A DNA stretch of 64,000 nt from Amycolatopsis aidingensis. GTDB taxonomy: Bacteria > Actinomycetota > Actinomycetes > Mycobacteriales > Pseudonocardiaceae. The stretch lies in NCBI RefSeq assembly GCF_018885265.1, contig NZ_CP076538.1, positions 5,182,001 to 5,246,000 of the forward strand, in the 5' to 3' direction. The notes below the pieces were generated by a model that searched no databases, was not told the DNA's origin, and saw only the letters and a list, made by a program, of their open reading frames with translations. The position numbers were made by a program, and so were the translations under genes. Positions 27,776-59,848 of this stretch are shown here, piece by piece (the stretch's first letter is position 1; every line of letters begins with the position of its first letter).

Positions 27776-28957
27776 ATGACGGCATCTCTTGTTGTCCTCG
27801 GTACGGGTTCGCTGGCGAACGCAACCTGCGATGCGCTCGCCACCGTGGCGGACGAGCCGACCGAGGTCCATGTGCTCGGCCGCGCGCCGCACAAGGTCCA
27901 GCAGCTCAGCTACCTCGCGGGCACGCGGGCACGGCTCGCGGGCAGGCCAGTGACCTTCCACCCCGTACCGGTGGGTACGGAGCCGGTCGAGAACAACCTC
28001 ACCGAACTGCTCGGCGAACTGCGCCCGCACGGCGTGTTCGTCTGCGCCTCCCCGCAGAGTCCATGGGAACGCCTCACCGCCCCTTCGGCCTGGACAGAAC
28101 TGCTGGAACGCGCCGGATTCGGGATCACGCTGCCACTGCACGCGGACCTCGCGGCACGCGCGGGGCGGGCCATCCGCGCCACCAGCCCGGGCACCTGGCT
28201 GGTGAACGCCTGCTTCCCGGACGCCGTCAATCCCGTGCTGACCGCGCTGGACATCCCCGTCCTGTGCGGTATCGGCAACGTCGGGACCCTGGCCGCCTCG
28301 CTCCAGGCCGCCTGGCACCTACCGGACCAGACGAGGATGCAGCTGCTCGCCCACCACGCGCACCTGCATCCCCCACCCGGACCGGAGCAGGAGGCAATGG
28401 CCTGGGTGGACGGTCACCGCACCCCCGGACTCACCGAACTGCTGGCCACCCAGCGCGCCACGAACCGCGAAGCGCTCAACCGGATCACCGGCTACACCGC
28501 GGCGGTCCTGCTGAACGCCTTGCTCACCGGAGCCGAACTCGCCACCCATGTACCCGGGCCCCTTGGCCATCCCGGTGGTTATCCGGTGCGCGTGCGCGAG
28601 GGCATAGTTTCCCTGCGGCTACCGCCGGGCCTCACCGAGGCCGAGGCGATCGCGGTCAACCAGCGCGCCGCCCGGCGGGACGGCGTGCGGATTCTCGGGG
28701 ACGAGATCCACTTCGAACCCGATTGCAGGGCCGCGCTGGCAGGCCCACTTCCCGAACTGGCCGACGGATTCGGCGTCACCACGCTGAACCACGCCGGCGC
28801 GGCTTTGCTCGAGCTACGCACCGAACTGCGCAGCCGACCTCATCCCCACCACCGAAGGGACGCTGATGACCTCAGAGCCCGCAACGATCGAAGCAGCCGA
28901 GATGAACACGCTCGCCCCACCGGCGATGTCCGGGAACCTGCTGACCGACTTCACTGA
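27776..28957 (+). CDS. NAD(P)-binding Rossmann-fold protein (operon gene 1)
   Basis: A 393-aa protein starting with a dinucleotide-binding motif (VVLGTGSLANATCDAL, GxGxxA) followed by VHVLGRAPHK. Size and layout (N-terminal Rossmann domain, helical C-terminal domain) fit opine/octopine-dehydrogenase-like or related amino-acid dehydrogenases, but I do not recognise the precise family. ATG 27776 chosen over upstream GTG/ATG codons because similarity to a Rossmann start begins there. The last ~38 residues (from PHPHHRRDADD) look non-coding and overlap the next gene by 92 bp; the original stop may have been lost by a small indel. Probably makes or modifies a building block together with the next gene. 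Confidence 0.7.
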   Translation: MTASLVVLGTGSLANATCDALATVADEPTEVHVLGRAPHKVQQLSYLAGTRARLAGRPVTFHPVPVGTEPVENNLTELLGELRPHGVFVCASPQSPWERLTAPSAWTELLERAGFGITLPLHADLAARAGRAIRATSPGTWLVNACFPDAVNPVLTALDIPVLCGIGNVGTLAASLQAAWHLPDQTRMQLLAHHAHLHPPPGPEQEAMAWVDGHRTPGLTELLATQRATNREALNRITGYTAAVLLNALLTGAELATHVPGPLGHPGGYPVRVREGIVSLRLPPGLTEAEAIAVNQRAARRDGVRILGDEIHFEPDCRAALAGPLPELADGFGVTTLNHAGAALLELRTELRSRPHPHHRRDADDLRARNDRSSRDEHARPTGDVREPADRLH

Positions 28958-30281
28958 ACTCCTGCCGCGGGCGATCGCCGAATGCGTGGCCGACCCGGCC
29001 CCGGTCACCGGTGACCCGGCCAGGTTCTCCCCCGGGTTCGAGCTACCGCCACCGGACGCGGGCATCCAGCGCCTCTACGCCGCCGCCACCGCGCGATGGT
29101 GGCCGCTCGGTGAGTACGCGGGCCACCGGCTGACCCTGCTCGACCTGGCAGGCAACCCGGGAACCCACACCACCAAGACCTTCGCCTCACTGCTCATCGT
29201 GGCACGCGCGATCGGGTACATCCGCCGCACCGGCGAACCGATCACCATCTTCTCCCCCACCTCGGCGAACAAGGGCACGGCGCTGCGGGACGCGGTGCTG
29301 CGGGCGATCGAGGCCGAGCTGGTGACGCCGGAACAGCTGCGGGTGGTGATCCTGGCGCCGGAATCCTCCCGGGACAAACTGCGGGCAGGCCGGATGTGCA
29401 CCGACCCCACCTTGCGCGAGCTCAACCCGCTGCTGCTGCACCGGGGCATACCCCCGGAGTCGGTGAAGCAGCTCGGCAGGCAGTTCGCCGACACCTACGC
29501 CCCCAGGCTCAAGCAAGGCGGCCGGAATCTCTGGTACTCCCTCGACCTGGCGAACTACCTGGTCGCCGACACCGCCCGCGCGTTCTTCGAGCACGCGGTG
29601 GATCCCACCGATCCCGCAAGCGCACCGCGCTGGCACGCGCACGCGGTGTCCAGCGCGTTCGGCATGCTCGGCTATCACCACGGCCGTGCTGTGCTGGAGG
29701 GCGCGGGGCTCGCCACCCCGGCCAGCAGGCCCGCCACGCTGCTGGTGCAGCACCTTGCCACCGCGGACATGGTGCTCTCCCTGTGCACCGGCGGCTTCGA
29801 ACGGGAAGGGCTGCCCCGCTACTCCGCCGAGGCCGGGACCGGCCTGCACCGGCAGGACGGCAAGACCGACCCGCATTTCCCTGCCACCACCTGCGATCCG
29901 GACGAGGTACTCGACCCGACCTTCTACACCAGGCGGCCCGCGACCTCACCCGCGATGAACGAGCTGATCGGCCGGTTCGGCGGGGACGGGATCGTGGTGT
30001 CCCTGCACGAATGCCTGCACCGGTACCCGGAAATCCGGGCCAGGCTGGCCGGGCACGAGCGCGAACTCCCCGCCGACGTACGCAAGCTCCGCGAGTGGTC
30101 CCTCGTGATGGCCATGACCGGGGTGCTGAACGCCGTGGACCGCGGACTGGTCACCCCCGGCGCGGACATCGTGGTGCACGGATCGGGCTGGTACTCCACC
30201 GACGAGTACCGGCCGCCGGGGGAATCCGAGACCACCACGGTGGACAATGTGGACGATATCGCGGCAGCGGTCATCGGCTGA
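28866..30281 (+). CDS. Unrecognised protein, possible PLP fold-type-II-like enzyme
   Basis: A 471-aa soluble protein. Residues ~95-180 (LAGNPGTHTTKTFASLLIVA ... IFSPTSANKGTALRDAV ... RVVILAPE) resemble the substrate/PLP-binding layout of threonine-synthase/cysteine-synthase-type enzymes: an NPxxxxxTK segment with Lys in the place of the PLP lysine, then a Ser/Thr-Ser-x-Asn loop. The C-terminal part (GDGIVVSLHECLHRYPEI) is unique. Start ATG 28866 follows accgaaggga; ATG 28902 and 28926 are alternatives. The pairing of a PLP-like protein with a Rossmann dehydrogenase resembles the SbnA/SbnB logic for 2,3-diaminopropionate, but neither protein is a clear homologue. Confidence 0.5.
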   Translation: MTSEPATIEAAEMNTLAPPAMSGNLLTDFTELLPRAIAECVADPAPVTGDPARFSPGFELPPPDAGIQRLYAAATARWWPLGEYAGHRLTLLDLAGNPGTHTTKTFASLLIVARAIGYIRRTGEPITIFSPTSANKGTALRDAVLRAIEAELVTPEQLRVVILAPESSRDKLRAGRMCTDPTLRELNPLLLHRGIPPESVKQLGRQFADTYAPRLKQGGRNLWYSLDLANYLVADTARAFFEHAVDPTDPASAPRWHAHAVSSAFGMLGYHHGRAVLEGAGLATPASRPATLLVQHLATADMVLSLCTGGFEREGLPRYSAEAGTGLHRQDGKTDPHFPATTCDPDEVLDPTFYTRRPATSPAMNELIGRFGGDGIVVSLHECLHRYPEIRARLAGHERELPADVRKLREWSLVMAMTGVLNAVDRGLVTPGADIVVHGSGWYSTDEYRPPGESETTTVDNVDDIAAAVIG

Positions 30282-30307: not shown

Positions 30308-32164
30308 ATGACCGCGATCCGTCAGGACACCACCACCATCATCACCGCGTTCGCCGCCAAGGCGGCCGAGTCGCCGGACGCCCCCGCGGTGATCGCCGAC
30401 GACGGCGAGCTCAGCTACCGGCGGCTGGCCGCGGGTGCCGCCGCCGTCGCCGAGCACATCCGGCGGCAGCGGCCGGACGGCCCGGTGGCACTGCTGTGCA
30501 GGCACGGAGCCACCACCATCGGCGCGCTGCTCGGCACCCTGCTGGCCGGCTGCCCCTACGTCCCGCTGGACCCCACCTTCCCGCGCGACCGCCTCGGCTA
30601 CCAGCTGGCCGACTCCGGGGCCGGGTTGCTGCTCACCGACGAGGGCAACCGTTCCTTCGCCGAGCGGGTGGCGAGCGAGGCGCCGCAGCAACCCCCGGTC
30701 GCCGATATCGACCCACTGCTGGCAACGGAGTCCACAGTAGACCCAAGTGAACTGGTGTCGCCCGCGGAGCCGGAGGACCCCGCCTACCTGCTGTACACCT
30801 CGGGCTCGACCGGGCAACCGAAGGGCGTGTGGCAAAGCCATCGCAATGTGGTCTTCGGCGCCCGCAACCACATCCGCCAGTTCACCATCACCCCCGCGGA
30901 CCGCACCAGCGTGCTGACCTCGTTCGGTTTCGACATGGCGGTCACCGACACCTTCTCCGCCCTGCTGTCCGGGGCCGCCGCGGTACCCATCGACATCCGC
31001 AGCACCGGGCTGGCCCGGCTCGCCGCCCTGCTCGCCGAGCGCGGGGTGACGATCTACCACTCCACCCCCACCGTCTACCGCTACCTGATGGCCGGCCTGG
31101 AAGGGACGGGCACGCTCGCCGACCTCCGGGTCGTACTGCTCGGCGGTGAGGAGGTGACCGCGCGGGACGTCCGGTCGTGCCGGGAGCACATCGGGCCGGG
31201 GTGCGTGTTCGTCAACGGGTACGGCACGACCGAGGTCAGCTTCATCGCGCAGCACCACCTACCCGCCTCGGCGCCCCTGCCGGACGGCATCGTCCCCATC
31301 GGGCGCCCGCTGGACGGCATCGAGGTACTCCTGCTGGACGGCGATGGCAAGCCCGGTACCGAGGGCGAGATCCTGGTGCGCAGCCCGCATGTCGCGCTCG
31401 GCTACCACGGCGAGGCGAGCGGCGCGGGCAGCCGGTTCGGCACCAGGGAGGGCGAACGCACCTACCGCACCGGCGACCTTGCCCGCAGGCTGCCGGACGG
31501 CACGCTCACCTTCCTCGGCCGGGCCGACCGCCAGGTGAAGATCCGCGGCCACCGGGTGGAGCTCGGCGAGGTGGAGACCCGGCTGGCCGACCTGCCGCAG
31601 GTGGCGCAGGCCGCCGTGCTGGCAAGGCGCGGTGCCGCGGGCGACGACACCGAACTGGTCGGCTACGCCGTGCCGAGCGAGGACGGTGCGTTCGACCCCG
31701 CTGCGGCCAGGGACGCGCTGGCAGCCCGGCTACCGGCCTACATGCTGCCCAGAGTGATCGTCGAGCTGGCCGAGCTGCCGCTCACCGTCACCGGGAAGCT
31801 GGACGAGCGCGCGCTGCCCGCACCGCCGCCACCCGCACCGGCCGCCGAGCAGGCGGCCCGGACCGAGCTGGAGAGCGTGATCGCGCGGGCCTGGTGCGAG
31901 ACGCTGGGCCTGGACGCGGTGGGCAGGGACGAGCACTTCTTCGACCTCGGCGGCCATTCCCTGCTGATGGCGCTGGTCCAGCTCCGCCTTGCCGACGCGC
32001 TCGGCAGCAAACCGCCGATGGCAACACTGTTCGCGCACCCGACGGTCGGCGCGCTGGCGGAACACCTCGCCGGGACCGCCACCGCGGAACCGGAGGCCGG
32101 GGCGGCCGCCGCGGACCGGGCCGCACGGCGCAGGCAGGCACGCACGAAACGGGCACGGCGATGA
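30308..32164 (+). CDS. NRPS loading module A-PCP
   Basis: A 618-aa didomain. Adenylation domain at ~15-510 with YTSGSTGQPKG (A3), FGFDMAVTD (A4), NGYGTTEVSF (A5), YRTGD (A7) and TGKLDERALP (Lys of A10). Carrier protein at ~520-590 with DEHFFDLGGHSL. There is no condensation domain, so it starts a chain. By eye against GrsA the pocket reads D-M-T-H-L-G-G-F-I, which fits no code I know; A8/A9 are normal. The C-terminal tail DRAARRRQARTKRARR is strongly basic and recurs in the protein at 38610; both precede KS proteins. ATG 30308 is 26 bp after the preceding stop; its stop overlaps the next start. Confidence 0.92.
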   Translation: MTAIRQDTTTIITAFAAKAAESPDAPAVIADDGELSYRRLAAGAAAVAEHIRRQRPDGPVALLCRHGATTIGALLGTLLAGCPYVPLDPTFPRDRLGYQLADSGAGLLLTDEGNRSFAERVASEAPQQPPVADIDPLLATESTVDPSELVSPAEPEDPAYLLYTSGSTGQPKGVWQSHRNVVFGARNHIRQFTITPADRTSVLTSFGFDMAVTDTFSALLSGAAAVPIDIRSTGLARLAALLAERGVTIYHSTPTVYRYLMAGLEGTGTLADLRVVLLGGEEVTARDVRSCREHIGPGCVFVNGYGTTEVSFIAQHHLPASAPLPDGIVPIGRPLDGIEVLLLDGDGKPGTEGEILVRSPHVALGYHGEASGAGSRFGTREGERTYRTGDLARRLPDGTLTFLGRADRQVKIRGHRVELGEVETRLADLPQVAQAAVLARRGAAGDDTELVGYAVPSEDGAFDPAAARDALAARLPAYMLPRVIVELAELPLTVTGKLDERALPAPPPPAPAAEQAARTELESVIARAWCETLGLDAVGRDEHFFDLGGHSLLMALVQLRLADALGSKPPMATLFAHPTVGALAEHLAGTATAEPEAGAAAADRAARRRQARTKRARR

Positions 32165-33552
32165 CGGCCGCGGCTGAGGACTCGATCGCGGTGATCGGCA
32201 TGGCCTGCCGGGTGCCGGGCGCCGCGGACGTGGACACCTTCTGGCACAACCAGCTCGCCGGGGTGGACGCGGTGCGCCGGTACACCGCGGCCGAGCTGCG
32301 CGCATCCGGCCTGGACGAGGAGACCAGCACCGACCCGCACTACGTCGCAGCCTACGGCCACCTGGACGGGCTCGCCGAGTTCGACGCCGGGTTCTTCGGC
32401 TACACCGCGGAGGAGGCCGCCCGCATCGACCCGCAGCAGCGGCTGTTCCTCGAGGTGGCGACCACCGCGCTGGCCGACGCCGGGCACGACCCCGCGGCCC
32501 GGCGGGAAACCGTCGGGGTGTACGCCGGTGCCGCTGCCAGCCGGTACTTCCTGTTCCACGTGCTGCCCAGCCTGCCGCCCACGGAATGGGAGGACGCGAT
32601 TCCCGGCAATCCGCCGGACTTCGTGCCCGCGCGAGTGGCCTACAAGCTCGGCCTCACCGGGCCCGCGGTGGCGGTGCAGACGGCCTGCTCCTCCTCCCTG
32701 GTCGCGATCTGCCAGGCCGCGCAGGGCCTGCTGGACTACCGGTGCGACCTGGCGATCGCGGGCGGGGCCGCGGTGATCTCCACTCAGCAGAACGGCTACC
32801 GGTACCGGCAGGGTGGTCCGCTGTCCCCGGACGGGGTCTGCCGTGCGTTCGACGCCAAGGCGTCCGGGATGGTGTTCGGCAACGGGGCGGGGGCTGTGGT
32901 GCTCAAGCGACTGCCCGACGCCCTCGCCGATGGCGACCATGTGGACGCCGTGCTGCCGGGCTGGGCGGTGAACAACGACGGCGCGGCGCGCGCCGGCTTC
33001 ACCGCGCCCGGGATGGACGGCCAGTCCGCTGTGGTCACCGAGGCACTGGCCTGCGCGCAGGCCGATCCGGACAGCATCGGGCTGGTCGAGGCACACGGCA
33101 GTGCCACCGCGGTCGGCGACGCCATCGAGTTCGGCGCGCTGTGCCAGGCTTTCCGCACCGACGCGCGCCGGTTCTGCGCGCTGGGCTCGGCCAAGACGGC
33201 CATCGGGAACCTGGACGCCGCGGCCGGGGTGGTCGGCCTGATCAAGGCGGTCTGCGCGGTGCGGGAAGGGCGGATCCCGCCGCTGCTGCACTTCGCGAGC
33301 CCCAACCCGGAGATCGACCTGGAAACCGGTCCGTTCTACGTCAACCAGGACGCCCTCCCCTGGCCGGAGCGCCACCCGGTGCGCCGGGCCGGGGTCAGCT
33401 CCTTCGGTCTCGGCGGCACCAACGCGCATGTCCTGGTGGAGCACCGGGCTGGGGAGCACAGTCCGCGCCCGCGCCGCCCGCTGCCGAGGTTCCGGCGCGA
33501 GCGGCACTGGATCGAACCCATGGACCCGCGTGCGAAGCGGGAGGCAGGATGA
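32161..33552 (+). CDS. Stand-alone ketosynthase with Cys-His-Asn triad
   Basis: A 463-aa protein with a single modular-PKS-type ketosynthase: VIGMACRVPGAADVDTFW at the start, active Cys176 in TACSSS, His312 in EAHGSAT. The second histidine (GHxxxAAG) is replaced by Asn350 in AIGNLDAAAG. A C-H-N set is normal in FabH/chalcone-synthase-type enzymes but rare in modular KSs. No acyltransferase or carrier is attached; only ~45 residues follow the KS (RPLPRFRRERHWI, a post-AT-linker-like remnant). It starts inside the stop of the A-PCP gene and probably accepts its aminoacyl or peptidyl thioester. It may extend, transfer or merely gatekeep. Confidence 0.85.
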   Translation: MTAAAEDSIAVIGMACRVPGAADVDTFWHNQLAGVDAVRRYTAAELRASGLDEETSTDPHYVAAYGHLDGLAEFDAGFFGYTAEEAARIDPQQRLFLEVATTALADAGHDPAARRETVGVYAGAAASRYFLFHVLPSLPPTEWEDAIPGNPPDFVPARVAYKLGLTGPAVAVQTACSSSLVAICQAAQGLLDYRCDLAIAGGAAVISTQQNGYRYRQGGPLSPDGVCRAFDAKASGMVFGNGAGAVVLKRLPDALADGDHVDAVLPGWAVNNDGAARAGFTAPGMDGQSAVVTEALACAQADPDSIGLVEAHGSATAVGDAIEFGALCQAFRTDARRFCALGSAKTAIGNLDAAAGVVGLIKAVCAVREGRIPPLLHFASPNPEIDLETGPFYVNQDALPWPERHPVRRAGVSSFGLGGTNAHVLVEHRAGEHSPRPRRPLPRFRRERHWIEPMDPRAKREAG

Positions 33553-35876
33553 ACCACGAACACCTGACCGAACTGCCCGGTACCCCGTGGCGGGTCTGGC
33601 GGGACGGGCTGCTGCGCTCGGCCGGTTTCCCGGTGGACGTGCTGGAGTCCTTCGCGGCGCCGGAATGCGCCGAGGTGGCCGATGCGCACCTGGAAGGGTC
33701 GGCTGCGGATACCGAGTTCACCGCGGCCTTCGACGCCGCAACGGTCGCGCTCGGCAGGGCCGTGTACGCGGTGTCCGCCGACCCGCGTTTCCGCGAGGCC
33801 ATCACCTGGCAGAACCCCGGCGCGCTGAACGGTCCCGCGGGCGTACTGCGAGACGGCCCGGACGCTCCGCGCAACGAACGGCGCCGCAGGCGGGAGGAGG
33901 TGGTGGCCAAGTACGCCCAGCGTTACAGCGGGAAGAACGACACCATCGGCTTCTTCGGTCCGATGTGCTGGGTGGAGGTGGACGCGGCCGCGCCGCCGCT
34001 GACCGGCGGCCACGGCCCCGGGCTGACCGGGGTACGCCGGGTGTTCTTCGAATGGTGGGCGCTGGTCGCGGTGGCCGAGAGCATCGCGGCGGACGACGCG
34101 GTCCGGCCGTGGCTGCCGGTGGCACTGCAACCCCAGCTCACCGTCGAGGGGCGCAGGCTACTGGCCCCCGGCAGGAAGCCGGTGGAACTCTCCCCCGCAC
34201 AGGCGGCCGTGCTGTCCCGCTGCGACGGCCGGAGCACCGCACACGAGGTCGCCCGCGCGTGCGTGGCCGACCAGGAATCCGGCATCCGCCGGGAGTCCGA
34301 TGTGGACGCATTGCTGGAGCTGTTCGCCCGGCAGGAGACCATCCGGTGGGAGTTCGTGCTGCCGATGAACCTCGCCGCGGAGGACGAGCTGCACCGCCAG
34401 GTGACCGCCATCGGCGACGAACGAGCCAGGAAGCGGGCCGCCGCGACGCTGGCCAGGATGCGCGCGGCGCGGGACGCACTGGCCGCGGCCGCGGGCCCGG
34501 AGGCGGTCGCCGCGGCCATGGCGACGCTGGAGTCGGAGTTCACCGAGATCACCGGCCGGACCGCGCAGCACCGCGCGGGCCAGACCTACGCCGGGCGCAC
34601 CCTGTGCCATCTCGAGACCGCAAGGGACGCGGAGTTCTCCTTCGGCGGCAAGGTGCTCGCCGCGCTCGCGCCGCTCGATCCGCTGCTGCGGTCCACCCGC
34701 TGGCTGACCAGCACCCTGGCCGGTACCTACCGGGCGGAGCTGACCGGGCTGCACGCGGAGCTGGCCGCCGAGCTCGGCAGCACCGAGGTGCCCTTCGCCC
34801 AGCTGTGGTTCCTCGGTCTCGGCTCCCTGTTCGGCGCGCAGCGGCCCGCCGACGCGGTGATCGAGGAGTTCGGCAGGCGCTGGACCAAGGTGCTCGGGCT
34901 GGACAACCTCGAACCGGGCACCGACCGGCTCGACCTGAGCACGGCCGCGCTGGCCGAGGCGGTGGCCGCGGAGTTCGGGGAGGCCGGACCTGGCTGGGCC
35001 ACCTCCCGGCTGCACGCCCCGGACGTGCACCTGTGCGCGCCCAGCACCGAGGCACTCGCCCGCGGCGAGTTCGACGTGGTGCTCGGCGAGCTGCACATCG
35101 GGATGCCCGCGCTGGACACCGACTTCTTCCGGCTCGGGCATCCGGACCCCGGGCGGCTGCTCGCGGCGATGCGCTCCGAGCTGCCAGCGGGCAGGGCGCA
35201 TCCGCTGCTGCCACCGGACTGGCCGAAGCAGTGCGCCCGCAACGCCGACTGGATGTACGGGCCGGAGGACGTGCAGCTCGGCTTCACCGCGGCGCCGGGC
35301 GCCGACCCGGATCGGCTGCTGCCGATCACCGCGCTCACCGTCGTCCCCGGCGCGGACGGCACGCTGCTGGCCCGCGCGCCGGACGGCAGGCAGTGGCCGC
35401 TGCTGGAGATGTTCGCCAGCTTCGTCGGCACCCATGCCTTCGACACCTGGAAACTGGCCGGTTCCGACGGGCACACCCCGCGGGTCACCGTGGACGGCCT
35501 GGTGCTGGTCCGCCGGACCTGGCGCTGCACGGTGGCCGGAACCGGACTCACCGAGGTGAGCGGGGAGCGGGACCGCTACCTCGCGGTACGCCGCTGGGCC
35601 AGGGACCTCGGCCTGCCACAGCGGGTGTTCGTCCGGGTCGGTACCGAGATCAAGCCCTGCTTCGCCGACCTGACCAGCCCGGTGTTCACCCGCATCCTGT
35701 GCACCCTGTTGCGTTCGGCGCGGCGCGCGGGCGGTCCGGACACCGAGGTCGCCGTGACCGAGATGCTGCCCACTCCGGACCAGGCGTGGCTCACCGACGC
35801 CGAGGGCAGGCGGTACTGCTCCGAACTGCGCCTGCACGTGTCCGACCCGGCGGGGAGGGAGGACGGCAATGCCTGA
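33549..35876 (+). CDS. LanB-like protein (lantibiotic dehydratase N-domain), copy 1
   Basis: A 775-aa protein. The segment KYAQRYSGKNDTIGFFGP (~residues 118-135) and the regions around LFARQETIRWEFVLPMN, AGQTYAGRTLCHLE and the C-terminal RVFVRVGTEIKPCFADLTSP match the large N-terminal (glutamylation) domain of class I lanthipeptide dehydratases. In that family the domain takes an amino acid from aminoacyl-tRNA. The small elimination domain is absent, as in split LanB proteins and PEARL ligases. No precursor peptide was found nearby. ATG 33549 overlaps the KS stop. It is a paralogue of the next gene over its full length. Role in the NRPS pathway unknown; tRNA-dependent amino-acid transfer is inferred. 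Confidence 0.72.
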   Translation: MNHEHLTELPGTPWRVWRDGLLRSAGFPVDVLESFAAPECAEVADAHLEGSAADTEFTAAFDAATVALGRAVYAVSADPRFREAITWQNPGALNGPAGVLRDGPDAPRNERRRRREEVVAKYAQRYSGKNDTIGFFGPMCWVEVDAAAPPLTGGHGPGLTGVRRVFFEWWALVAVAESIAADDAVRPWLPVALQPQLTVEGRRLLAPGRKPVELSPAQAAVLSRCDGRSTAHEVARACVADQESGIRRESDVDALLELFARQETIRWEFVLPMNLAAEDELHRQVTAIGDERARKRAAATLARMRAARDALAAAAGPEAVAAAMATLESEFTEITGRTAQHRAGQTYAGRTLCHLETARDAEFSFGGKVLAALAPLDPLLRSTRWLTSTLAGTYRAELTGLHAELAAELGSTEVPFAQLWFLGLGSLFGAQRPADAVIEEFGRRWTKVLGLDNLEPGTDRLDLSTAALAEAVAAEFGEAGPGWATSRLHAPDVHLCAPSTEALARGEFDVVLGELHIGMPALDTDFFRLGHPDPGRLLAAMRSELPAGRAHPLLPPDWPKQCARNADWMYGPEDVQLGFTAAPGADPDRLLPITALTVVPGADGTLLARAPDGRQWPLLEMFASFVGTHAFDTWKLAGSDGHTPRVTVDGLVLVRRTWRCTVAGTGLTEVSGERDRYLAVRRWARDLGLPQRVFVRVGTEIKPCFADLTSPVFTRILCTLLRSARRAGGPDTEVAVTEMLPTPDQAWLTDAEGRRYCSELRLHVSDPAGREDGNA

Positions 35877-38613
35877 GGTTTTCAGGGGTACCCGGATGCC
35901 CTCCGCGAGCGCCGTGCTGTTCTGCTTCCCTCCCGCCGGGTCCGGACCGGAGCCGTTCCAGGACTGGCTGCCACGCCTTCCATCCACTGTGGACATCAGG
36001 GTGCTCGCCGTCCCGGCGGACGCGGAGATGATCGCCGAGGCCGTGCTGGCCGAGGCGGACCGGCCCTATGCCTGCTACGGCCACGGCGACGGTGGCCTGC
36101 TCGCCCTCGACGTGCTCGGGTTACTGCGCGACCGGGGCGGCCCGTCGCCGCTGCGCTGCTACCTCGGTGGTCCCCGCCCGCCGGAGCGGCCCGAGCCGCC
36201 ACCGGCCCCGCTGGTCGACCTCACCGGCGCCGCGGACCTCACCGGCTCCCTCGCCACCGACCTGGACCAGGCCCTCGCCCCCGGGGTGCGGCTGGTGCCG
36301 CTGCCGGGGACCCATTGGCAGGTCTGGTCGGCCGGGATGCTGCGCACAGCCGGATTCCCCGCCCAAGGGCTGGACCTGCTCGGCGCGCCGGACTGCGCGG
36401 CCGTCGCGGACGCGCACCTGGACGGACACACCGGCCGGGAGGACTTCCTCTCCGCCTTCGGCACGGCGGCCCGCGCGGTCGGCACCCGCCTCGCCGGGGT
36501 GGCGGCCGACCCGCTGTTCCGGGAGGCGGTGAGCTGGCAGAACCCCGGCGCGGTGACGGCGCTGGACAAGCTCGCCGCGGCCGACCCGAGCGGCCCGAGC
36601 ACCAGCAAGCGGCGGGAGCGGGAGAAGATCGTCGCGCGTTACTGGTCCCGGTACTGCGGCAAGAACGACAGCATCGGGTTCTTCGGGCCGGTCTGCTGGG
36701 CCGAGGTGGCCGATGGCGCGGAGGCAGTGCGTGCCGAACCGGGCCCGGAACTGCTACGCAGGCGCATGGTGCGGCTGGAATGGTGGGCGCTGACCGCCTT
36801 CGCCGACTCCTACGGCACCGATCCGCGGGTCCGCGCCTGGTACCCACTCGGCTTACAGCCGCACCACGCGCTGCGGGAGGGGACCCTGCTGCGTCCTGCC
36901 GACCCTCCGCTGCGGCTGCGCCCCGCCGAGGCCACCGTACTGGCGCTGTGCGATGGGAGCAGGCCGGCATGCGAGATAGCCCGGCTCGCCATCGCCGACC
37001 CGGACTCGGGGCTGCGCAAGGAAAGCGACGTCTACCTGCTGGCGGACCGGCTACGCAGGCAGGGCCTGCTGCGCTGGCGGCTCGACCTGCCCTATGACCT
37101 CACCGCGGAGGAGTTCCTGCGCTCCTGGATCGACCGGATCGGCGACCAGGCCGTACGGGAACGGGTCGCCACTGACTTCCGGCGGATCGGTGCGGCCAGG
37201 GACCGCCTGGCCGCCGCGGCCGGCGATGCCGACCTGGTCCGGGCAGCCATGACCGGGCTGGACACGGAGTTCCGCGCGATCACCGGGATGCCGCCGCGGC
37301 AGCGGGCAGGCGAGACCTACGCGGGCCGCGCGCTGTGCTACGAGGACACCGAACGGGACCTGGAGCTGACCGTCGGCGAGCCGGTGCTGGCGGCGCTGGC
37401 CGGGCCGCTGGACCTGCTGCTGCGGGCGGCGCGCTGGCTCACCGTTGCCGTCGCCGATGCCTACCGGGACGCCTTCCGCGTGCTGTACAAGGAACTCGCC
37501 GAGGAACTCGGTACCGGCAGCGTGCCGCTTGGCGAGCTGTGGTTTCTTGCCAACGGCCTGGTCTACGGCGTCGGCGAGCGGCCGGTGGACGCGGTGATGG
37601 CCGAGTTCGTCCGGCGCTGGTCCGGCCTGCTCGGCCTCGACTCCGGCACGGATGGTGCCCGCCGGATCCAGCTCAGCTCAGCCGAGCTGGACGGGCCCGC
37701 CGCGCGGGCCTTCCCCGCCGAGGGACCGGGCTGGTCCGGGGGGCGGCTGCACAGCCCGGACCTGAACCTGTGCGCGGCGAGTGTGGACGAGCTGCGGCGC
37801 GGCGAGTTCACCGCCGTGCTCGGCGAGCTGCACGCCGCATGGCTGACCTGCTCGTCCGGGTTCTTCGTGGACTTCCACCCCGACCGCGCGGCGCTGGTCG
37901 ATGCCGTGCACCGGGATCTCGGGCACCGCACCGTACCGCTGTATCCCACCGACTTCCCGATGCTCACCGCCCGCCTTGCCGACCTGCTGGTCGGACCGGA
38001 GGACCGGCGGGTAGGGCACGCACCGGCCCCGGTATGGGACCCGGAACGGGTGCTCCCGGTCAGCGGGCTCACCGTGACCGAACGGGAGGGTGAGCTGCTG
38101 GCCAGCGATGAGCACGGGAACTCCTGGCCGCTGGTCGAGCTGTTCGGCGAGTTCCTCGGCACCTTCACCGCGGACGCCTACAAGCTGGTCGGCTCCGCAG
38201 CGCACACGCCGCGGATCAGCATCGACCGGCTGGTGGTGGCGCGCGAGACCTGGCGCACCACCATCGAAGCCACCGGACTGTCCGATGTAGACGACTACGC
38301 CGGGCGCTACCTCGCGGCCCGCAGGCTCCGCCGCGGGCTGGGCCTGCCGGAACGGGTGTTCGTCAAGATCGGCACCGAGACCAAGCCGTGCTACCTGGAT
38401 CTCACCAGCCCGGTGTCGGTCTCCGCACTGTGCACCATGCTGCGTACCGCGCGCGGGACGCACGGGCCGGAGGTGCCGGTCACGATCACCGAGCTGCTGC
38501 CAACCCCCGAACAGGCATGGGTCACCGACGCCGAAGGGCGCCGCTACTACTCGGAGCTGCGGCTGCACGTGCGGGACCCGCGCACCGCAGCCCGGCAGGG
38601 GAGCCACCGATGA
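35869..38613 (+). CDS. Degenerate thioesterase fused to LanB-like protein, copy 2
   Basis: A 914-aa fusion. Residues ~10-150 are a shortened type II thioesterase-like domain: VLFCFPPAGSGPEPFQDW is the usual start, but the nucleophile motif GHSxG reads GHGDG, with Gly73 in place of Ser, so it cannot act as a normal hydrolase. The rest, from LPGTHWQVWSAGMLRTAGF, is collinear with the LanB-like protein at 33549 (RYCGKNDSIGFFGP; AGETYAGRALCYED; RVFVKIGTETKPCYLDLTSP). The thioesterase domain may now only bind a carrier protein or acyl chain and hold the LanB part at the assembly line. ATG 35869 overlaps the upstream stop by 8 bp; its own stop overlaps the next start. Confidence 0.72.
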   Translation: MPEVFRGTRMPSASAVLFCFPPAGSGPEPFQDWLPRLPSTVDIRVLAVPADAEMIAEAVLAEADRPYACYGHGDGGLLALDVLGLLRDRGGPSPLRCYLGGPRPPERPEPPPAPLVDLTGAADLTGSLATDLDQALAPGVRLVPLPGTHWQVWSAGMLRTAGFPAQGLDLLGAPDCAAVADAHLDGHTGREDFLSAFGTAARAVGTRLAGVAADPLFREAVSWQNPGAVTALDKLAAADPSGPSTSKRREREKIVARYWSRYCGKNDSIGFFGPVCWAEVADGAEAVRAEPGPELLRRRMVRLEWWALTAFADSYGTDPRVRAWYPLGLQPHHALREGTLLRPADPPLRLRPAEATVLALCDGSRPACEIARLAIADPDSGLRKESDVYLLADRLRRQGLLRWRLDLPYDLTAEEFLRSWIDRIGDQAVRERVATDFRRIGAARDRLAAAAGDADLVRAAMTGLDTEFRAITGMPPRQRAGETYAGRALCYEDTERDLELTVGEPVLAALAGPLDLLLRAARWLTVAVADAYRDAFRVLYKELAEELGTGSVPLGELWFLANGLVYGVGERPVDAVMAEFVRRWSGLLGLDSGTDGARRIQLSSAELDGPAARAFPAEGPGWSGGRLHSPDLNLCAASVDELRRGEFTAVLGELHAAWLTCSSGFFVDFHPDRAALVDAVHRDLGHRTVPLYPTDFPMLTARLADLLVGPEDRRVGHAPAPVWDPERVLPVSGLTVTEREGELLASDEHGNSWPLVELFGEFLGTFTADAYKLVGSAAHTPRISIDRLVVARETWRTTIEATGLSDVDDYAGRYLAARRLRRGLGLPERVFVKIGTETKPCYLDLTSPVSVSALCTMLRTARGTHGPEVPVTITELLPTPEQAWVTDAEGRRYYSELRLHVRDPRTAARQGSHR

Positions 38614-41600
38614 CGGCCGTGCGGACACCGGAGACCGGACCGGCGCGCTGGGGCCGCGGCGCCGAGGTGGAGTACCCGGAGTCCACCATCGGCGAGCTGG
38701 TGCGGGCGTGGATCGAGCACACCCCGGACGCCGTGGCCGTGCGGCAGTGGGAAACCCGGCTCAGCTACGCCGAGCTCGGCAGGGCCGCGAACGCACTGGC
38801 CGTCCGGCTGGCCGAACTCGGCGTCGGGCCGGAAACGCGGGTCGGCATCGCGCACGGTCGCGGCCCGGGCCTGGTCACCGCCGTGCTCGGGGTCCTGCTC
38901 GCCGGTGGCGCCTACCTGCCACTCGACCCCACCCTGCCCCGCCGCAGGCTGCTGGACATGCTCGCCGACGCCGGTGCGGAGCTGGTGCTCGCCGACGCGG
39001 CGGGCGAGGCCGCGCTGGAAGGTGCAGGCCGCCGCCTGCTGCGCGTACCGGAACCGCCGCGGGAGCCGGTGGCACCGCACCCCTGCCCCGCCCTGCCGGG
39101 CAACGCCGCGTACGTGCTGTACACCTCGGGCTCGACCGGGCGGCCCAAGGGGGTCGTGGTCGGGCACCGCTCGGTGGTGTCCCTTGCCAGCGCGTTCGGC
39201 CCGGCCACCGCTGCCGGACCGGGCAGTGTCACCCTCGCCTTCGCCGCGATCTCCTTCGACGTCTCGGTCAGCGATCTGCTCGTTCCCCTTGCCTGCGGCG
39301 GGACCGTGGCGCTGGCAGGCGAGCCGGAACGCGCCGATGTGGCCAGCCTGCAACGGTTCGCCGAGGCGCATGCGCCGACCAGGGGCAGCATCCCGGTGGC
39401 CCTGCTGCCGCTGCTCGACCCGGAACGGCTGCCCAGCCTGCGCACCCTGCTCACCGGATCGGAGGCCCCCGGCCCGGAACAGGTGCTGCGCTGGACCGGC
39501 TCCGCCGACCAGCCGCGGCGGACGTTCACCAACCTCTACGGTCCGACGGAGACCTGCGTGCAGGTCACCGCGTTCCGCGCCGAGGGCAGCTGGGACCGGC
39601 CACTGCCGATCGGGCGCCCGCTGCCCAACCACCGGGTGTACGTGGTGGACGAGCGGCTGCGGCCGGTACCTGCGGGCGGCGAGGGCGAGCTGCTCGTCGG
39701 CGGCGCCGGGCTCGCCCGCGGCTATCTCGGGCAGCCGGGGCTGACCGCGAGCCGGTTCGTGCCCGATCCGGTCGGCGGTGCGCCGGGCGAGCGGGTGTAC
39801 CGGACCGGCGACCTGGTGCGCTGGCAGCCGGACGGCACCCTGCTGTTCCTCGGCCGGGCCGACCGGCAGGTGAAGATCCGCGGGCAGCGGGTGGAGATCG
39901 GCGAGATCGAGGCCGTGCTGCGGGCGCACGAGTCGGTCGGGCACTGCGTGGTGGACGCGGCGCCCGGCCCGCGGGGACCGGAACTGGTTGCCTTCGTCGT
40001 CCCGGCACCGGAGGCTACCGCGCCCGGCCCGGACGCGCTGCGCGAGCACTGCCGACTGCGGCTGCCCGGCGCCATGGTGCCCCGGATCCGGGTCCTGGAC
40101 GCCCTGCCGCTGAACGCATCCGGCAAGGTGGACCTGGCGCGGCTGCACCGGATGACCGCCCGGCCCGCTTCCCGGCAGGGGCCCGCGGCGGCAACACCGG
40201 TCGAGCGGGCGGTGGCCGCGCACTGGCGTGCCCTGCTCGGCGGGGACGGTGAGCCGGGCCTCGCGGACGACTTCTTCGCAGGCGGCGGCCATTCGGTCAC
40301 CGCCATGCGCCTGGTCGCGGCGCTGCGTACCGAGCTGCGCAGGGACATCGCCGTTGAGGACGTGCTCGCCGGGCGCACCCTGGCCGGGATCGCGGGGCGG
40401 GTGGCCGCCGCGGCCGAACTCACCGGGCCGGACGGCTGGTACGGCACCCCGCCACGGCTGTCTCCAGCCCAGCGCCGGTTGTGGCTGCTGGACCGGTACG
40501 CGCCGGACACCGCCGCCTACAACATCGCGATGGCCGAACGGCTGCACGGACCGCTGGATCCCGCGGCGCTGCGGGCGGCGTTGCGCGCGGTCGCCACCCG
40601 CCAGGAGGTGCTGCGCTGGCGCATCCCGGCCGCGGCGGGTGTGCCGTACGCCGCGGTGGACCCGCCGGGCGAGCCGCCGCTGGCCGTGACCGACCTCACC
40701 GGACTGCCCGAGCCGGCCAGGGAAACGGCGCTGGCCGACCGGCTGGCCGCCGCCGCGCGGGTCCCGTTCGACCTCGCTGGTGGTCCACTGTGGAGGGTCC
40801 AGCTGTACGTGCTCGGCGAACGGGAGCACGTACTCGCGATCACCGCGCACCACACGGTGTTCGACGGGTGGTCGCAGGACCTGGTCTACCGCGACCTTGC
40901 CGCCGCCTACGCGCAGGCATGCGAGCGCGGGACGGCCGCCCTCGACCCGCTGCCTGCGGGTTTCGCCGACTACGTCGCCTGGCGCGAGCAACGCAGGCAG
41001 CGCAGGGCCGAGGAGGACCTGGCCTGGTGGGTGCGGCACCTGCGGGACGTGCCTGCCACCCTGAACCTCCCTGCCGACCGGCCGCGCCCCGCCGAGCAGA
41101 CCTTCCGCGGTGCCGCCGCGCACCGGCGGCTCGACCGGCGGACCAGCGCCGCGGTCAACGCACTCGGCGCCCGGCTCGGGGCCACCGCATCTGCGGTACT
41201 GATGGCCGCGCTCGGGCTGGTGCTGCGGCGGATCACCGGGCAGCGCGAGTTCGTGGTCGGCACCCCGGCCGTGGACCGCAGGCATGCCGATTTCCAGGAC
41301 ATGGTCGGATTCTTCGTCGAGATCATCCCGCTGCGGGTCGAGGTGACCGAGGAGACGCCGTTCACCGAGCAGGTGACCGCCATGCGGGACGAGCTGCTTA
41401 CCGCGCTCGCGCATCCGGAGATCTCGCTGGAGGAACTCGTCGGCGCGCTGGGCGCGGGCGGGGCGGCCGACCGCAACCCGGTCGCACAGGTCATGTTCAA
41501 CATGTTCAACTTCACCGCACCCCAGCTGCGGCTGCCCGGTCTGCGGGCCGAGCCGGTGCCGGTCGGGGTACCCGGATCACCCTTCGACCTGACCGTGTAC

Positions 41601-42194
41601 GGGCAGGAACGGGACGGCCGGATCGGCATCGACCTGGTCTACAACCCCGATCTGTTCACGGCCGACCGGATGGAAGCGCTGCTGGCGGGCTACCTCGCGG
41701 TGCTGCGTGCCCTGGTGTCCACACCGGACGCCGCCATCGGCTCGGTGGAGCTGCCTGGCGAGCGGCGGCTGGCCACCCCGGCGGCCACGGCGAGCCCCGC
41801 GCCACCCGCGGCCGCGGTGTCCCGCACCGCCGCCTCGTCCCCCGCACCCGGCGGTGCCGGCCCGGAGACCGCGACCGAGCGGGCGATCGCGGAGGTGTGG
41901 TGCGCGGTGCTGGGGCTTCCTGAGGTCGGTGCGACCGAAAGTTTTTTCGAGGTCGGTGGCAGCTCGATGGCGGCCGCCGAGGTACAGGACCGGCTGCGGG
42001 ACCGGCTCGGCGTGGCCGTGCGGCTGGTGGAGTTGTTCCGGTTCCCCACAGTGCGCACGCTGGCGGCGCATGTGGACGGTGCGGGCAGCACAACCGGTGC
42101 CGCCGCGCTGGACCGGGCGGCCCGGCGGAGCGCGGCCCGGCGAACCCGGGCGCGGCACCGGCCGCAGGCGAGTGATCAGGGAGGCATCCAGTGA
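38610..42194 (+). CDS. NRPS A-PCP-C-PCP
   Basis: A 1194-aa protein. Adenylation domain ~25-520 (YTSGSTGRPKG, ISFDVSVSD, NLYGPTETCV, YRTGD, NASGKVD), PCP1 ~530-600 (FFAGGGHSV), condensation domain ~615-1040 with intact AHHTVFDGWS, PCP2 ~1095-1165 (FFEVGGSSM). The second carrier has no A domain in this protein, so it must be loaded in trans. By-eye pocket code D-V-S-S-L-G-L-V-Q, no confident substrate. The tail LDRAARRSAARRTRAR resembles that of the A-PCP protein at 30308 and precedes a KS protein again. ATG 38610 lies within the stop of the LanB-like gene. Confidence 0.92.
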   Translation: MTAVRTPETGPARWGRGAEVEYPESTIGELVRAWIEHTPDAVAVRQWETRLSYAELGRAANALAVRLAELGVGPETRVGIAHGRGPGLVTAVLGVLLAGGAYLPLDPTLPRRRLLDMLADAGAELVLADAAGEAALEGAGRRLLRVPEPPREPVAPHPCPALPGNAAYVLYTSGSTGRPKGVVVGHRSVVSLASAFGPATAAGPGSVTLAFAAISFDVSVSDLLVPLACGGTVALAGEPERADVASLQRFAEAHAPTRGSIPVALLPLLDPERLPSLRTLLTGSEAPGPEQVLRWTGSADQPRRTFTNLYGPTETCVQVTAFRAEGSWDRPLPIGRPLPNHRVYVVDERLRPVPAGGEGELLVGGAGLARGYLGQPGLTASRFVPDPVGGAPGERVYRTGDLVRWQPDGTLLFLGRADRQVKIRGQRVEIGEIEAVLRAHESVGHCVVDAAPGPRGPELVAFVVPAPEATAPGPDALREHCRLRLPGAMVPRIRVLDALPLNASGKVDLARLHRMTARPASRQGPAAATPVERAVAAHWRALLGGDGEPGLADDFFAGGGHSVTAMRLVAALRTELRRDIAVEDVLAGRTLAGIAGRVAAAAELTGPDGWYGTPPRLSPAQRRLWLLDRYAPDTAAYNIAMAERLHGPLDPAALRAALRAVATRQEVLRWRIPAAAGVPYAAVDPPGEPPLAVTDLTGLPEPARETALADRLAAAARVPFDLAGGPLWRVQLYVLGEREHVLAITAHHTVFDGWSQDLVYRDLAAAYAQACERGTAALDPLPAGFADYVAWREQRRQRRAEEDLAWWVRHLRDVPATLNLPADRPRPAEQTFRGAAAHRRLDRRTSAAVNALGARLGATASAVLMAALGLVLRRITGQREFVVGTPAVDRRHADFQDMVGFFVEIIPLRVEVTEETPFTEQVTAMRDELLTALAHPEISLEELVGALGAGGAADRNPVAQVMFNMFNFTAPQLRLPGLRAEPVPVGVPGSPFDLTVYGQERDGRIGIDLVYNPDLFTADRMEALLAGYLAVLRALVSTPDAAIGSVELPGERRLATPAATASPAPPAAAVSRTAASSPAPGGAGPETATERAIAEVWCAVLGLPEVGATESFFEVGGSSMAAAEVQDRLRDRLGVAVRLVELFRFPTVRTLAAHVDGAGSTTGAAALDRAARRSAARRTRARHRPQASDQGGIQ

Positions 42195-45100
42195 ACGAGT
42201 CAGTACAGCCGGAACCAGGCGCCGAGCCGGTGGCGATCATCGGCATGGCCTGCCGCGTGCCCGGCGCGGGCGACGTGGCGCGGTTCTGGGACAACCTGGT
42301 CGAGGGTGTCGAGTCGCTGACCCCGCTGAGCCGGGAGCGGATGGCCGCGGCAGGCGCGACCGAGGCGGAGCTTGCCGATCCGAACCTGGTGGCCTCGGCC
42401 TTCGTGCTGGAGGACGCGGACCTTTTCGACGCCGGGCTGTTCGGGATGACCCCGAGGGAGGCCGAGGTCACCGACCCGCAGCACCGGGTGTTCCTCGAGC
42501 TGTGCCACGGCGCGCTGGAGGACGCGGGTTACGACCCGGCCCGCTACCCGGGAGACATCGGCCTCTACGCGGGCCGCGGCACCGAGCGCTACCGCTGGGA
42601 ACATGTGCACCGCAACCGGGAACTGCTGGCCACCACCCCCTCGATGGCCATCGGTATCGGCAATCTCTCGGACAACGTCACCACGCTGGTCTCCTACAAG
42701 CTCGACCTGCGCGGGCCCAGCGTCGGGCTGTTCACCGCCTGCTCCACCTCACTGGTCGCAGTGCACCTCGCCACCGAGGCGGTACGCGCAGGCGAATGCG
42801 ATATGGCGCTGGCAGGTGGGATGAACATCGAGTTCCCGCAGGACCGGGGTCAGGTGCACCAGGAGGGCGGGGTCACCTCCGCCGACGGGCATGTGCGTTC
42901 CTTCGACGCGGGCGCGACCGGCACCATGTGGGGCTCCGGCGGCGGCGCGGTGCTGGTCAAGCGGCTGGCCGACGCGCGCCGCGACGGTGACCACGTGCAT
43001 GCCGTGCTGCTCGGCAACTCGATCAACAACGACGGCGCGGGCAAGGTCGGGTTCGCCGCGCCCAGCGTGGACGGGCAGGCCGCCGCCATCGCCGACGCGC
43101 TCGCCGTGGCCGGGGTCGACCCGCGCACGATCGGCTACGTCGAGGCACACGGCACCGCGACCCCGCTGGGCGACCCGATCGAACTGACCGCGCTGACCAG
43201 CGTCTACGGGCACGGCACCGAGGAGCGCGGGTGGTGCGGGATCGGCTCGGTGAAGTCCAACATCGGCCATCTCAGCCAGGGAGCCGGGGTGGTCGGGCTG
43301 ATCAAGACGGCGCTGGCGCTGGAACACGGCCTGATCCCGCCGAGCCTGCACTACGAGCGGCCGAACCCGGGCATCGACTTCGCGGCGAGCCCGTTCTACG
43401 TCAACGCCACGCTGTCCAAATGGGAACGTAACGGCCACCCGCGCCGGGCCGCGGTGTCCTCCTTCGGCATCGGCGGTACCAACGCGCACGTCATCCTGGA
43501 GGAGGCACCCGAGCGCGATCCCGCCGCGGAGACCGCGGGACCGCAACTGCTGCGCCTTTCGGCGCGGGACGAGGCCGCGCTGTCCGCGGCCGCGGACCGG
43601 CTGGCCGGGCATATCGAGGGCCACCCCGAGCTGCGCCTTGCCGATGTCGCGCACACCCTGCGGGTGGGCAGGGCCGAGTACGGGCACCGCGCGTTCGTGG
43701 TCGCCGACACCCCGGCCGCTGCCGCGGCCGCGCTGCGGGATCCCAAGCGCCGCGACGCCTCCGCCGCCACGGCAGGTACCCCGGTACTCGCCTGGCTGCT
43801 GACCGGGCAGGGGGCACAGTTCGGCGGCATGGGTGCCACCCTGTACCAGCGGGAGCCGGTGTTCACCGAGGCCGTCGACGAGTGCGCCGCCGTGCTCGCC
43901 GGGGAGCTGGGCGAGGACATCCGGCCGGTGCTGTTCACCCCGGAGGCCGGGCAGCGGCCGCGGCTCTCCGGCACCGAGCTGGCCCAGCCCGCGCTGTTCA
44001 CCGTGGAGTACGCGCTGGCCCGGCTGTGGCAGTCCTGGCAGGTCCAGCCGGACACCATGATCGGCCACTCCGTCGGCGAGTACGTCGCGGCCACCCTGGC
44101 CGGGGTGTTCGAACTGCCGGACGCGCTCCGGCTGGTGGCGACAAGGGGCAGGCTGATGGGTGCCATGCCACCGGGGGTGATGGCCGCGGTGTCCCTCGCC
44201 GAGTCCGAAGTCGCCCCGCTGCTGCCGGATGGGCTCGCGATCGCCACGGTGAACGGGCCGGGCACCTGTGTGGTCTCCGGGGAGGCGGAGCTGGTGGAGG
44301 AGTTCACCGCGGGGCTGGCCGAGAAGTTCGGCAAGAAGGCAGGGGTGAAGCGGCTGCGGACCTCGCATGCCTTCCATTCCCCGATGATGGAGCCGATGCT
44401 GGCGGAGTTCGCCGACGCGGTGGCCGCGGTGCCCCGGCACGCTCCCCGGCTGCCCTTCTTCTCGGGGGTTTCCGGGGAACCGATCACCGCGGACCAGGCG
44501 GTCGATCCCGGCTACTGGGCCGCGCAGGTACGCCGGACCGTGCGGTTCGGGGACTGCGTGGCGCGGCTGCTCGCCGACGGTCCTGCCCTGTTCCTGGAAT
44601 GTGGCCCGGGAAGGCAGCTGGCCGGGCTGGTGCGGATGCAGACCCGCGGCCAGGGCCTGCCCGCGGTGCCCAGCCTGCCGGGTCCCGCCGACAAGCTGGG
44701 CGAGATCGAGACCCTTTGCACCGCGGCAGGAAAACTCTGGGCGGCGGGGATCGCGGTGCAGCCACCGGCGCGGGGACGGCGGGTGCCGCTGCCCGGCTAC
44801 CCCTACCAGCGCAGCCGGTACTGGGTAGATCCCGACCCCGGCGGCGAACCCGAGCGGGCGCGACCCGCTCCCAGCGATGCGCGGCTGCCATTGGAGCGCT
44901 GGTTCACCGTGCCGAGCTGGCGCCAGCTGCCCCCGGCCACCACCGGGCCAGCACCCTCATCCTGCGTGGTGTTCACCGCCGATCCGCTCGGTTCCGCCGT
45001 CGCCGAGCGGCTGCGGGCGGCGGGTACGACGGTGACCGAGGTCAGCCAGGGTACCGAGTTCGCGCGCACCGGAACCGGGTACACGATCCGGCCGGAGGAA

Positions 45101-47565: not shown

Positions 47566-47703
47566 CCGTCCGGGAACAGCCAACGCGTGCATGTAGCGGG
47601 CAAACGCGTGCATGCAGGCGGCAAACACACCGGCCCGCGCGCGTTTGCCGCCCACGCGCATGCGTTTGCCGCCCACGCGCATGCGTTTGCCGTTCGCGTA
47701 CGG
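47566..47703. repeat. 21-bp repeat array B in inverted arrangement
   Basis: Three 21-bp units in minus orientation (47566, 47587, 47608) and three in plus orientation (47641, 47662, 47683), around a 12-bp GC-rich centre (47629-47640). The units at 47641 and 47662 are identical; core gtttgccgcccacgcgca. The whole forms a large imperfect palindrome of ~138 bp filling the only sizeable gap inside the NRPS-PKS operon, right after the PKS stop. Same unit as array A at 25601-25722. Confidence 0.88.
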
Positions 47704-47716
47704 GATGGGAGGAACC

Positions 47717-59843: not shown

Positions 59844-59848
59844 GGCGG

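Follow-up and report, generated by a model that had tools for sequence, protein, structure and literature searches.

Two LanB-like genes within an NRPS-PKS operon

We analysed a 64,000-nucleotide stretch of the Amycolatopsis aidingensis genome (the window), which carries two adjacent genes for lantibiotic dehydratase-like proteins, LanB1 and LanB2, in the midst of a non-ribosomal peptide synthetase (NRPS) and polyketide synthase (PKS) operon. They are preceded by an NRPS didomain protein with adenylation (A) and thiolation (T, carrier) domains and by a stand-alone ketosynthase (KS), KS1, and followed by an A-T-C-T NRPS, which contains a condensation (C) domain, and by a PKS module. From the end of the A-T gene (32164) to the start of the PKS gene (42191), the reading frames overlap by 4-8 bases at each junction. 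The end of KS1 (33552) lies beyond the start of LanB1 (33549), that of LanB1 (35876) beyond the start of LanB2 (35869), that of LanB2 (38613) beyond the start of the A-T-C-T gene (38610), and that of the A-T-C-T gene (42194) beyond the PKS start.

The sole LanB domain matched in Pfam is PF04738 (E-values of 1.5e-34 in LanB1 and 1.1e-32 in LanB2), and neither protein matches the elimination domain PF14028. The LanB parts of the two proteins are 50% identical in an alignment and share a KND-x-IGFFGP motif (KNDTIGFFGP in LanB1, KNDSIGFFGP in LanB2) and an RVFV-x-x-GTE-x-KPC motif (RVFVRVGTEIKPC and RVFVKIGTETKPC, respectively). The predicted model of LanB1 has the LanB fold, like TbtB, NisB and MibB. 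The N-terminal ~145 residues of LanB2 are the remnant of a thioesterase, matched by PF00975 over residues 17-105, in which the GHS-x-GG motif of the relatives is replaced by GHGDGG and the C-terminal half is deleted. The same decay in Amycolatopsis cihanbeyliensis (P0122) shows that the two species share it and that it is no artefact of assembly.

Among the candidates scored, 263 and 321 were homologues of the LanBs (120 of each listed), and at least 72 loci were found in named genomes, which excludes chance. These results are in agreement with a preliminary description of the locus, according to which the two proteins are collinear LanB-like paralogues with both motifs, translationally coupled to the KS and NRPS genes. 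Its assumption of a LanB fold is borne out by structure prediction, and the NRPS-PKS setting is evident from Pfam, as A-T, A-T-C-T and C-A-T NRPS and a PKS module stand in one run of genes (Table 1).

Active site

For peptide aminoacyl-tRNA ligases (PEARLs), the available parts of the published reports (PMC11962472, PMC12945691) give as active-site residues Y205/R208, Y426/R429, E575/H577, F755/K763, E813/R815, R34, D558 and R715. Counterparts occur here in the same order and with exact spacing within the five pairs, which correspond to Y122/R125, Y347/R350, E514/H516, F694/K702 and E759/R761, while the single residues R34, D558 and R715 have R23, D492 and R655 as their counterparts. The correspondence to the PEARL BhaBC-Trp was drawn by eye, from motif order and spacing. 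The Tyr/Arg pair that binds the CCA end of the tRNA, together with the loop Arg (Y205, R208 and R429 of BhaBC-Trp), is thus represented by Y122, R125 and R350.

We counted these residues in 124 LanB domains, two of which are those of the window. Domains with a coverage under 90% or a score under 450 bits were dropped, as were the duplicates L103, L104, L105, L107 and L108 (of loci L010, L017, L030, L066 and L024, respectively) and loci L062, L079 and L080. R23, R125, R350, D492, E514, H516 and R655 are invariant; Y122 is found in 123 of the 124 domains; E759 and R761 are likewise found in 123, the remaining domain having a gap at these two.

An Asp and an Arg of the ATP site are described as unique to PEARLs, and a Glu as common to PEARLs and split LanBs (PMC11117183). 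By motif order and spacing, the PEARL-only pair (D542/R803 in TglB) is equivalent to D492/R761. In a profile-aligned control of 25 canonical LanBs, an Asp at position 492 and an Arg at position 761 were never found, and a Glu at position 759 was found in 22. The control comprised two sequences from the A. aidingensis genome itself and 23 from its bacterial family, the latter being one from each of the loci L123-L145; other PF04738 matches were not used. The relationship to PEARLs considered in the preliminary description is therefore supported by a PEARL-type active site in both copies, including an Asp and an Arg that the 25 canonical LanBs lack, and the glutamylation-like PF04738 domain occurs without PF14028, as in PEARLs.

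LanB1 and LanB2 share PF04738 and the predicted fold with class I lantibiotic dehydratases and split LanBs (NisB, MibB, TbtB), but differ from them in having no elimination domain and in having the PEARL-only Asp and Arg. The family membership and the fold would also fit true LanB chemistry, in which Ser and Thr hydroxyls of a carrier-bound peptide are glutamylated and converted to dehydroalanine and dehydrobutyrine. That reading is extremely unlikely in view of the PEARL-only residues (0/25 in the canonical LanBs), of the missing elimination domain, which was found neither in the two proteins nor, fused or split, within 250 kb of them, and of the fact that no precursor peptide was recognised.

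Search for a precursor peptide and a tRNA gene

With the gene starts chosen, no intergenic gap from 27776 to 62249 exceeds 51 bp, which leaves no space for a separate precursor gene within the operon. The 501 bp upstream of the operon contain eight small open reading frames, which gave no tblastn match (E 0.01) among the 92 loci tested, and the two longest had no Pfam or NCBIfam match. No ribosomal scaffold or lanthipeptide precursor was thus recognised in the operon or the 501 bp upstream, in line with the earlier statement that a precursor is absent; a distant gene is possible. For want of a recognised scaffold peptide gene nearby, we do not file the LanB pair as a scaffold-peptide (pearlin) system. 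A hybrid with a pathway for ribosomally synthesised and post-translationally modified peptides (RiPPs) was rejected because no elimination domain was found and no precursor was recognised.

A dedicated tRNA gene was rejected as well, the ARAGORN calls being sporadic and taken as chance. The window yielded one odd tRNA-like call (15683-15772, minus strand) outside the cluster, with a four-base anticodon and within a likely coding region, probably a chance fold; 6 of the 60 related loci scanned had one call each. No aminoacyl-tRNA synthetase was found among the genes scanned with Pfam, but no search was aimed at such enzymes.

Conservation of the gene block and origin of the tandem copies

We searched named genomes with a profile of 20 sequences; the best 80 matches of a larger set were used and gave 72 loci. 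LanB, a KS1 homologue, an A-T-C-T homologue and a PKS occur together in 50 of these loci (43 of the 55 with full flanks), spanning several actinobacterial families. This conservation and the overlap of the LanB frames with the KS and NRPS genes speak against the possibility that the LanBs serve a separate product of a neighbouring pathway and merely share the operon. It is true that 16 of the 72 loci have a LanB homologue without an A-T-C-T match, but several of these lie on short contigs, and other NRPS or PKS domains are present in L012-L016 and L020. We consider a separate product very unlikely.

At least two complete LanBs are present in 32 of the 72 loci, one of which has three, and contig ends hide some copies. 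We built a tree of 74 LanB domains, which remained of the 124 after removal of near-duplicates at 80%, by a quick method with Shimodaira-Hasegawa-like approximate likelihood ratio test (SH-aLRT) supports only. LanB1 groups with the first LanB of A. taiwanensis (SH-aLRT 99), and LanB2 with a lone thioesterase-LanB from Actinophytocola (100). In the Micromonospora pairs, the first LanBs fall into one clade and the second LanBs into another (100 each). The two Actinocrispum LanBs are sisters (98), and the three LanBs of Streptosporangium minutum group with one LanB of Microtetraspora (100). Tandem copies have thus arisen more than once, so that the pair noted earlier is indeed present, but is not unique.

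One of the two copies might have lost catalysis and merely assist the other, as a scaffold or a partner protein, in which case a single residue would be added. The retention of a dead thioesterase on LanB2 in two species would be in line with this, as would the fact that, where complete LanBs are present (71 loci), 39 loci show just one (some of them cut by contig ends), but both window proteins have the full set of active-site residues, and we find a scaffold copy improbable.

LanB shares one open frame with a thioesterase motif GHS-x-G in 36 of the 72 loci. Fusions of LanB to A-T domains occur in L116, L117 and a second locus of the A. aidingensis genome, and a fusion to an MbtH domain occurs in P0152. 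In this second locus, at about 3.53 Mb, A-T-LanB is a single polypeptide (L118:4626-10379) followed by C-A-T, flavin adenine dinucleotide (FAD) monooxygenase, DUF6875, C-A and major facilitator superfamily (MFS) genes, and the second half of the system resembles that of the window's cluster. L116 and L117 (G110 and G172) have the same arrangement. Three Streptomyces proteins of 1007-1013 residues (P0301, P0302 and P0305) combine a LanB domain with PF15891.

The condensation domain and the second carrier

The preliminary description knew of no pathway with this arrangement, a claim of novelty that fails, since a LanB-like enzyme of an NRPS-PKS pathway had already been described. In the available part of a 2024 report (PMC11212132), SnaE of Stackebrandtia nassauensis, annotated as a lantibiotic dehydratase, is required for the addition of Thr in the NRPS-PKS pathway of threopeptin, and some 2,000 NRPS/PKS clusters with SnaE-like genes are mentioned, along with fusions to thioesterase and thiolation domains. 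As here, SnaE belongs to an NRPS-PKS cluster without a precursor peptide, and it is proposed to form an amide in an ATP- and aminoacyl-tRNA-dependent manner. The rationale given is that a carboxylate is left stranded after ureido formation by a C domain with the signature EHHXXHDG, which resides in an A-T-C-A-T protein.

The partner in the window differs from that of SnaE: its C domain has an xHHxVxDG motif, it lacks a second A domain, the operon includes a stand-alone KS, and the LanBs are often paired and often fused to a thioesterase. None of the three C-domain motifs scored in the window (AHHTVFDG, AHRIAADE and AHHIVCDD) is of the ureido type. In the relatives, the block C domain has xHHxVxDG in 56/56 cases and EHHxxHDG in 0/56, a count that leaves out three of 59 entries (low-identity domains in L030 and L065 and a fragment in L080). 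The scan did pick up the signature, as EHHLVHDG, next to the L119 LanB in a set of 20 further regions. This LanB, the sole one found linked to a ureido-forming C domain, falls in the other part of the tree, with modest support (SH-aLRT 80). A threopeptin-like ureido pathway was rejected on the C motifs of the window and of the 56 relatives; as far as the signature tells, the published rationale for SnaE does not fit the block.

The second carrier of the A-T-C-T protein has no A domain of its own and must be supplied in trans. All 55 A-T-C blocks with a PKS next to them have the second carrier motif, and only one (L027) has an A-domain match after the C domain; in 52 the gap after the C domain measures 411-592 bp, which fits a carrier but is too short for an A domain. 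L080 is perhaps included twice in this count. L017 and L069 lack a same-strand PKS downstream.

Such a carrier invites the suggestion that the LanBs replace the A domain in line, passing aminoacyl or acyl-aminoacyl groups from tRNA to its thiol. Besides the pattern in the 55 blocks, LanB2 directly precedes the A-T-C-T protein in the window, other loci have LanB domains fused to A-T proteins, and a tRNA-using enzyme that replaces an NRPS domain has a precedent in livipeptin, as given in the available part of PMC10548850. The livipeptin enzyme likewise works with an incomplete NRPS, but it is of an unrelated family, a leucyl/phenylalanyl (L/F) transferase, and the missing domain is C there and A here; the window proteins have the LanB fold and C domains are present. 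In-line loading is nevertheless unlikely. To our knowledge, no PEARL ends on a thiol, the separate A-T protein could load the second carrier in trans, L027 has both an A domain and a LanB, and two to three LanBs exceed the need of one carrier.

Proposed role of the LanB pair

The LanB fold, the PEARL-type active site, the NRPS-PKS operon and the fact that no precursor was recognised argue for a tRNA-dependent, amide-forming role that supplements the NRPS. We think it probable that LanB1 and LanB2 are PEARL-type amide synthetases built into the NRPS-PKS pathway. Each would take a single amino acid from aminoacyl-tRNA and ligate it to a carboxylate, activated by ATP, on an intermediate of the pathway. 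This retains the tRNA-dependent part of the role suggested in the preliminary description, but not the carrier-bound acceptor. That description mentions neither the degenerate thioesterase on LanB2, nor the neighbouring A-less carrier, nor the lack of the ureido-forming C domain by which SnaE is explained. The LanB core would bind ATP together with the CCA terminus of a charged tRNA and phosphorylate the carboxylate of the intermediate; the amine of the aminoacyl-tRNA would then attack the activated carboxylate, and the tRNA would be freed. Neither an A nor a C domain would be needed for the single residue that each LanB adds.

PEARLs such as the TglB, BhaB and AmmB enzymes have the same ATP- and CCA-site residues and, in bha and amm, several copies per cluster with one residue added by each, but they extend a ribosomal scaffold peptide encoded nearby, and none was recognised here. 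Since a PEARL is reported to add no more than one residue (available part of PMC11962472), the copy number may count the tRNA-derived residues, which would predict two such residues here and three in Streptosporangium minutum. Unlike that of threopeptin, the carboxylate would not come from a ureido-forming C domain. Where a relative has an intact thioesterase before its LanB, this thioesterase may release the chain from the carrier by hydrolysis and give the acid that the LanB extends. With the thioesterase of the window dead, some other activity would have to serve there, or else a free carboxylate (of a side chain, a starter or the end product).

Several points weigh against an amide synthetase role. 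Ligase activity is a prediction, and the match to the BhaBC-Trp residues rests on motifs. Not all counterparts are strictly conserved in the 124 domains: K702 is found in 116 and is Arg in eight, position 347 is Tyr in 114, F694 is found in 90 and replaced by Tyr in 34, and position 118, the counterpart of BhaBC-Trp Gln201, is unconserved. The loci without an A-T-C-T match count against it, too. Finally, known PEARLs act on a free carboxylate, whereas assembly-line thioesters are already activated, so that ATP use is not obviously needed, and the dead thioesterase of the window leaves the carboxylate source unexplained.

Within the open literature searched, the LanB/KS1/A-T-C-T/PKS block is undescribed. 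It is a well-conserved variation on a type of system whose first characterisation dates from 2024, not categorically new but unexplained by the published logic. A widespread block with one to three LanBs, a carrier without an A domain and no ureido signature suggests at least one further rationale for tRNA-dependent amide formation in NRPS-PKS pathways. There is only a small chance that the A-less carrier is charged from aminoacyl-tRNA via the LanBs and that the number of LanB genes sets that of the tRNA-derived residues. If the carrier were so charged, the pathway would be a hybrid assembly line in which charged tRNAs of the ribosome replace an NRPS adenylation domain. Dozens of sequenced strains offer a test of what loads this carrier and of how many residues derive from tRNA. 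In any case, a "lantibiotic dehydratase" label in an NRPS-PKS cluster should not be taken as RiPP chemistry.

Surrounding operon

Table 1. Genes and features of the LanB operon, with positions in the window
Feature	Position	Strand	Basis
Gene travelling with DUF6002; dehydrogenase-like by eye; no Pfam or NCBIfam match; start uncertain	27776..28957	+	co-occurrence
DUF6002, predicted fold-type II pyridoxal phosphate enzyme (threonine-synthase-like), perhaps building-block supply	28866..30281	+	
NRPS A-T didomain	30308..32164	+	Pfam; start chosen
KS1, stand-alone ketosynthase, Cys-His-Asn (IGN replaces NIGH)	32161..33552	+	Pfam, sequence
LanB1, LanB-fold PEARL-like aminoacyl-tRNA ligase (predicted), 775 aa	33549..35876	+	
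LanB2, second PEARL-like protein (predicted), N-terminal thioesterase remnant, 914 aa	35869..38613	+	PF04738 E 1.1e-32, PF00975 6.8e-10
Vestigial thioesterase part of LanB2 (GHGDGG, C-terminal half deleted)	35869..36303 (end approximate)	+	alignment
NRPS A-T-C-T; C motif AHHTVFDG (not ureido type); second carrier without A domain	38610..42194	+	Pfam, motifs
PKS module KS-AT-KR-DH-ACP (ketosynthase, acyltransferase, ketoreductase, dehydratase, acyl carrier protein)	42191..47560	+	Pfam
AMP-forming ligase-like, PaaK-like below curated cut-offs; no Pfam match; start uncertain	47612..49024	+	
SufS-like class V aminotransferase-fold enzyme, below SufS cut-off	49021..50223	+	
FAD monooxygenase; best NCBIfam match VioC, below cut-off	50223..51560	+	
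DUF6875-C-A-T, from start of DUF6875 match; C motif degenerate, AHRIAADE	51653..55381	+	Pfam, sequence
NRPS C-A-T with terminal reductase domain	55404..59843	+	Pfam
MFS transporter (start approximate)	59840..61165	+	Pfam
O-methyltransferase	61173..62249	+	Pfam

KS1 of the window has an Asn at the second catalytic His. Among 50 KS1 matches in the relatives, this residue is His in 32 and Asn in five (L017, L021, L025, L036 and L048), and 13 could not be read by the pattern. A Cys-His-Asn triad has been reported for the KS of fungal TAS1 (available part of PMC4640141). KS1-like domains of 58-60% identity also occur in open frames of ~1,170 residues in eight genomes of the same genus (G205, G231, G124, G054, G107, G085, G183 and G015), which have no LanB match or none nearby and represent an unexplained related system.

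In the DUF6875-C-A-T protein, AHRIAADE stands at 52643-52666 where HHxxxDG is expected, and its C domain may, judging by this motif, be unable to condense. DUF6875 proteins are described, in the part of PMC13307353 that was available, as heme proteins that oxidise tryptophan. A C-A NRPS gene runs past the window end; its C domain is not among the three scored for the ureido motif. Directly after the window, 3' of this last NRPS gene, lies a protein (L122:3741-4247) with the N-terminal domain of thiamine pyrophosphate enzymes (PF02776), which looks by eye like one half of a split phosphonopyruvate or sulfopyruvate decarboxylase.

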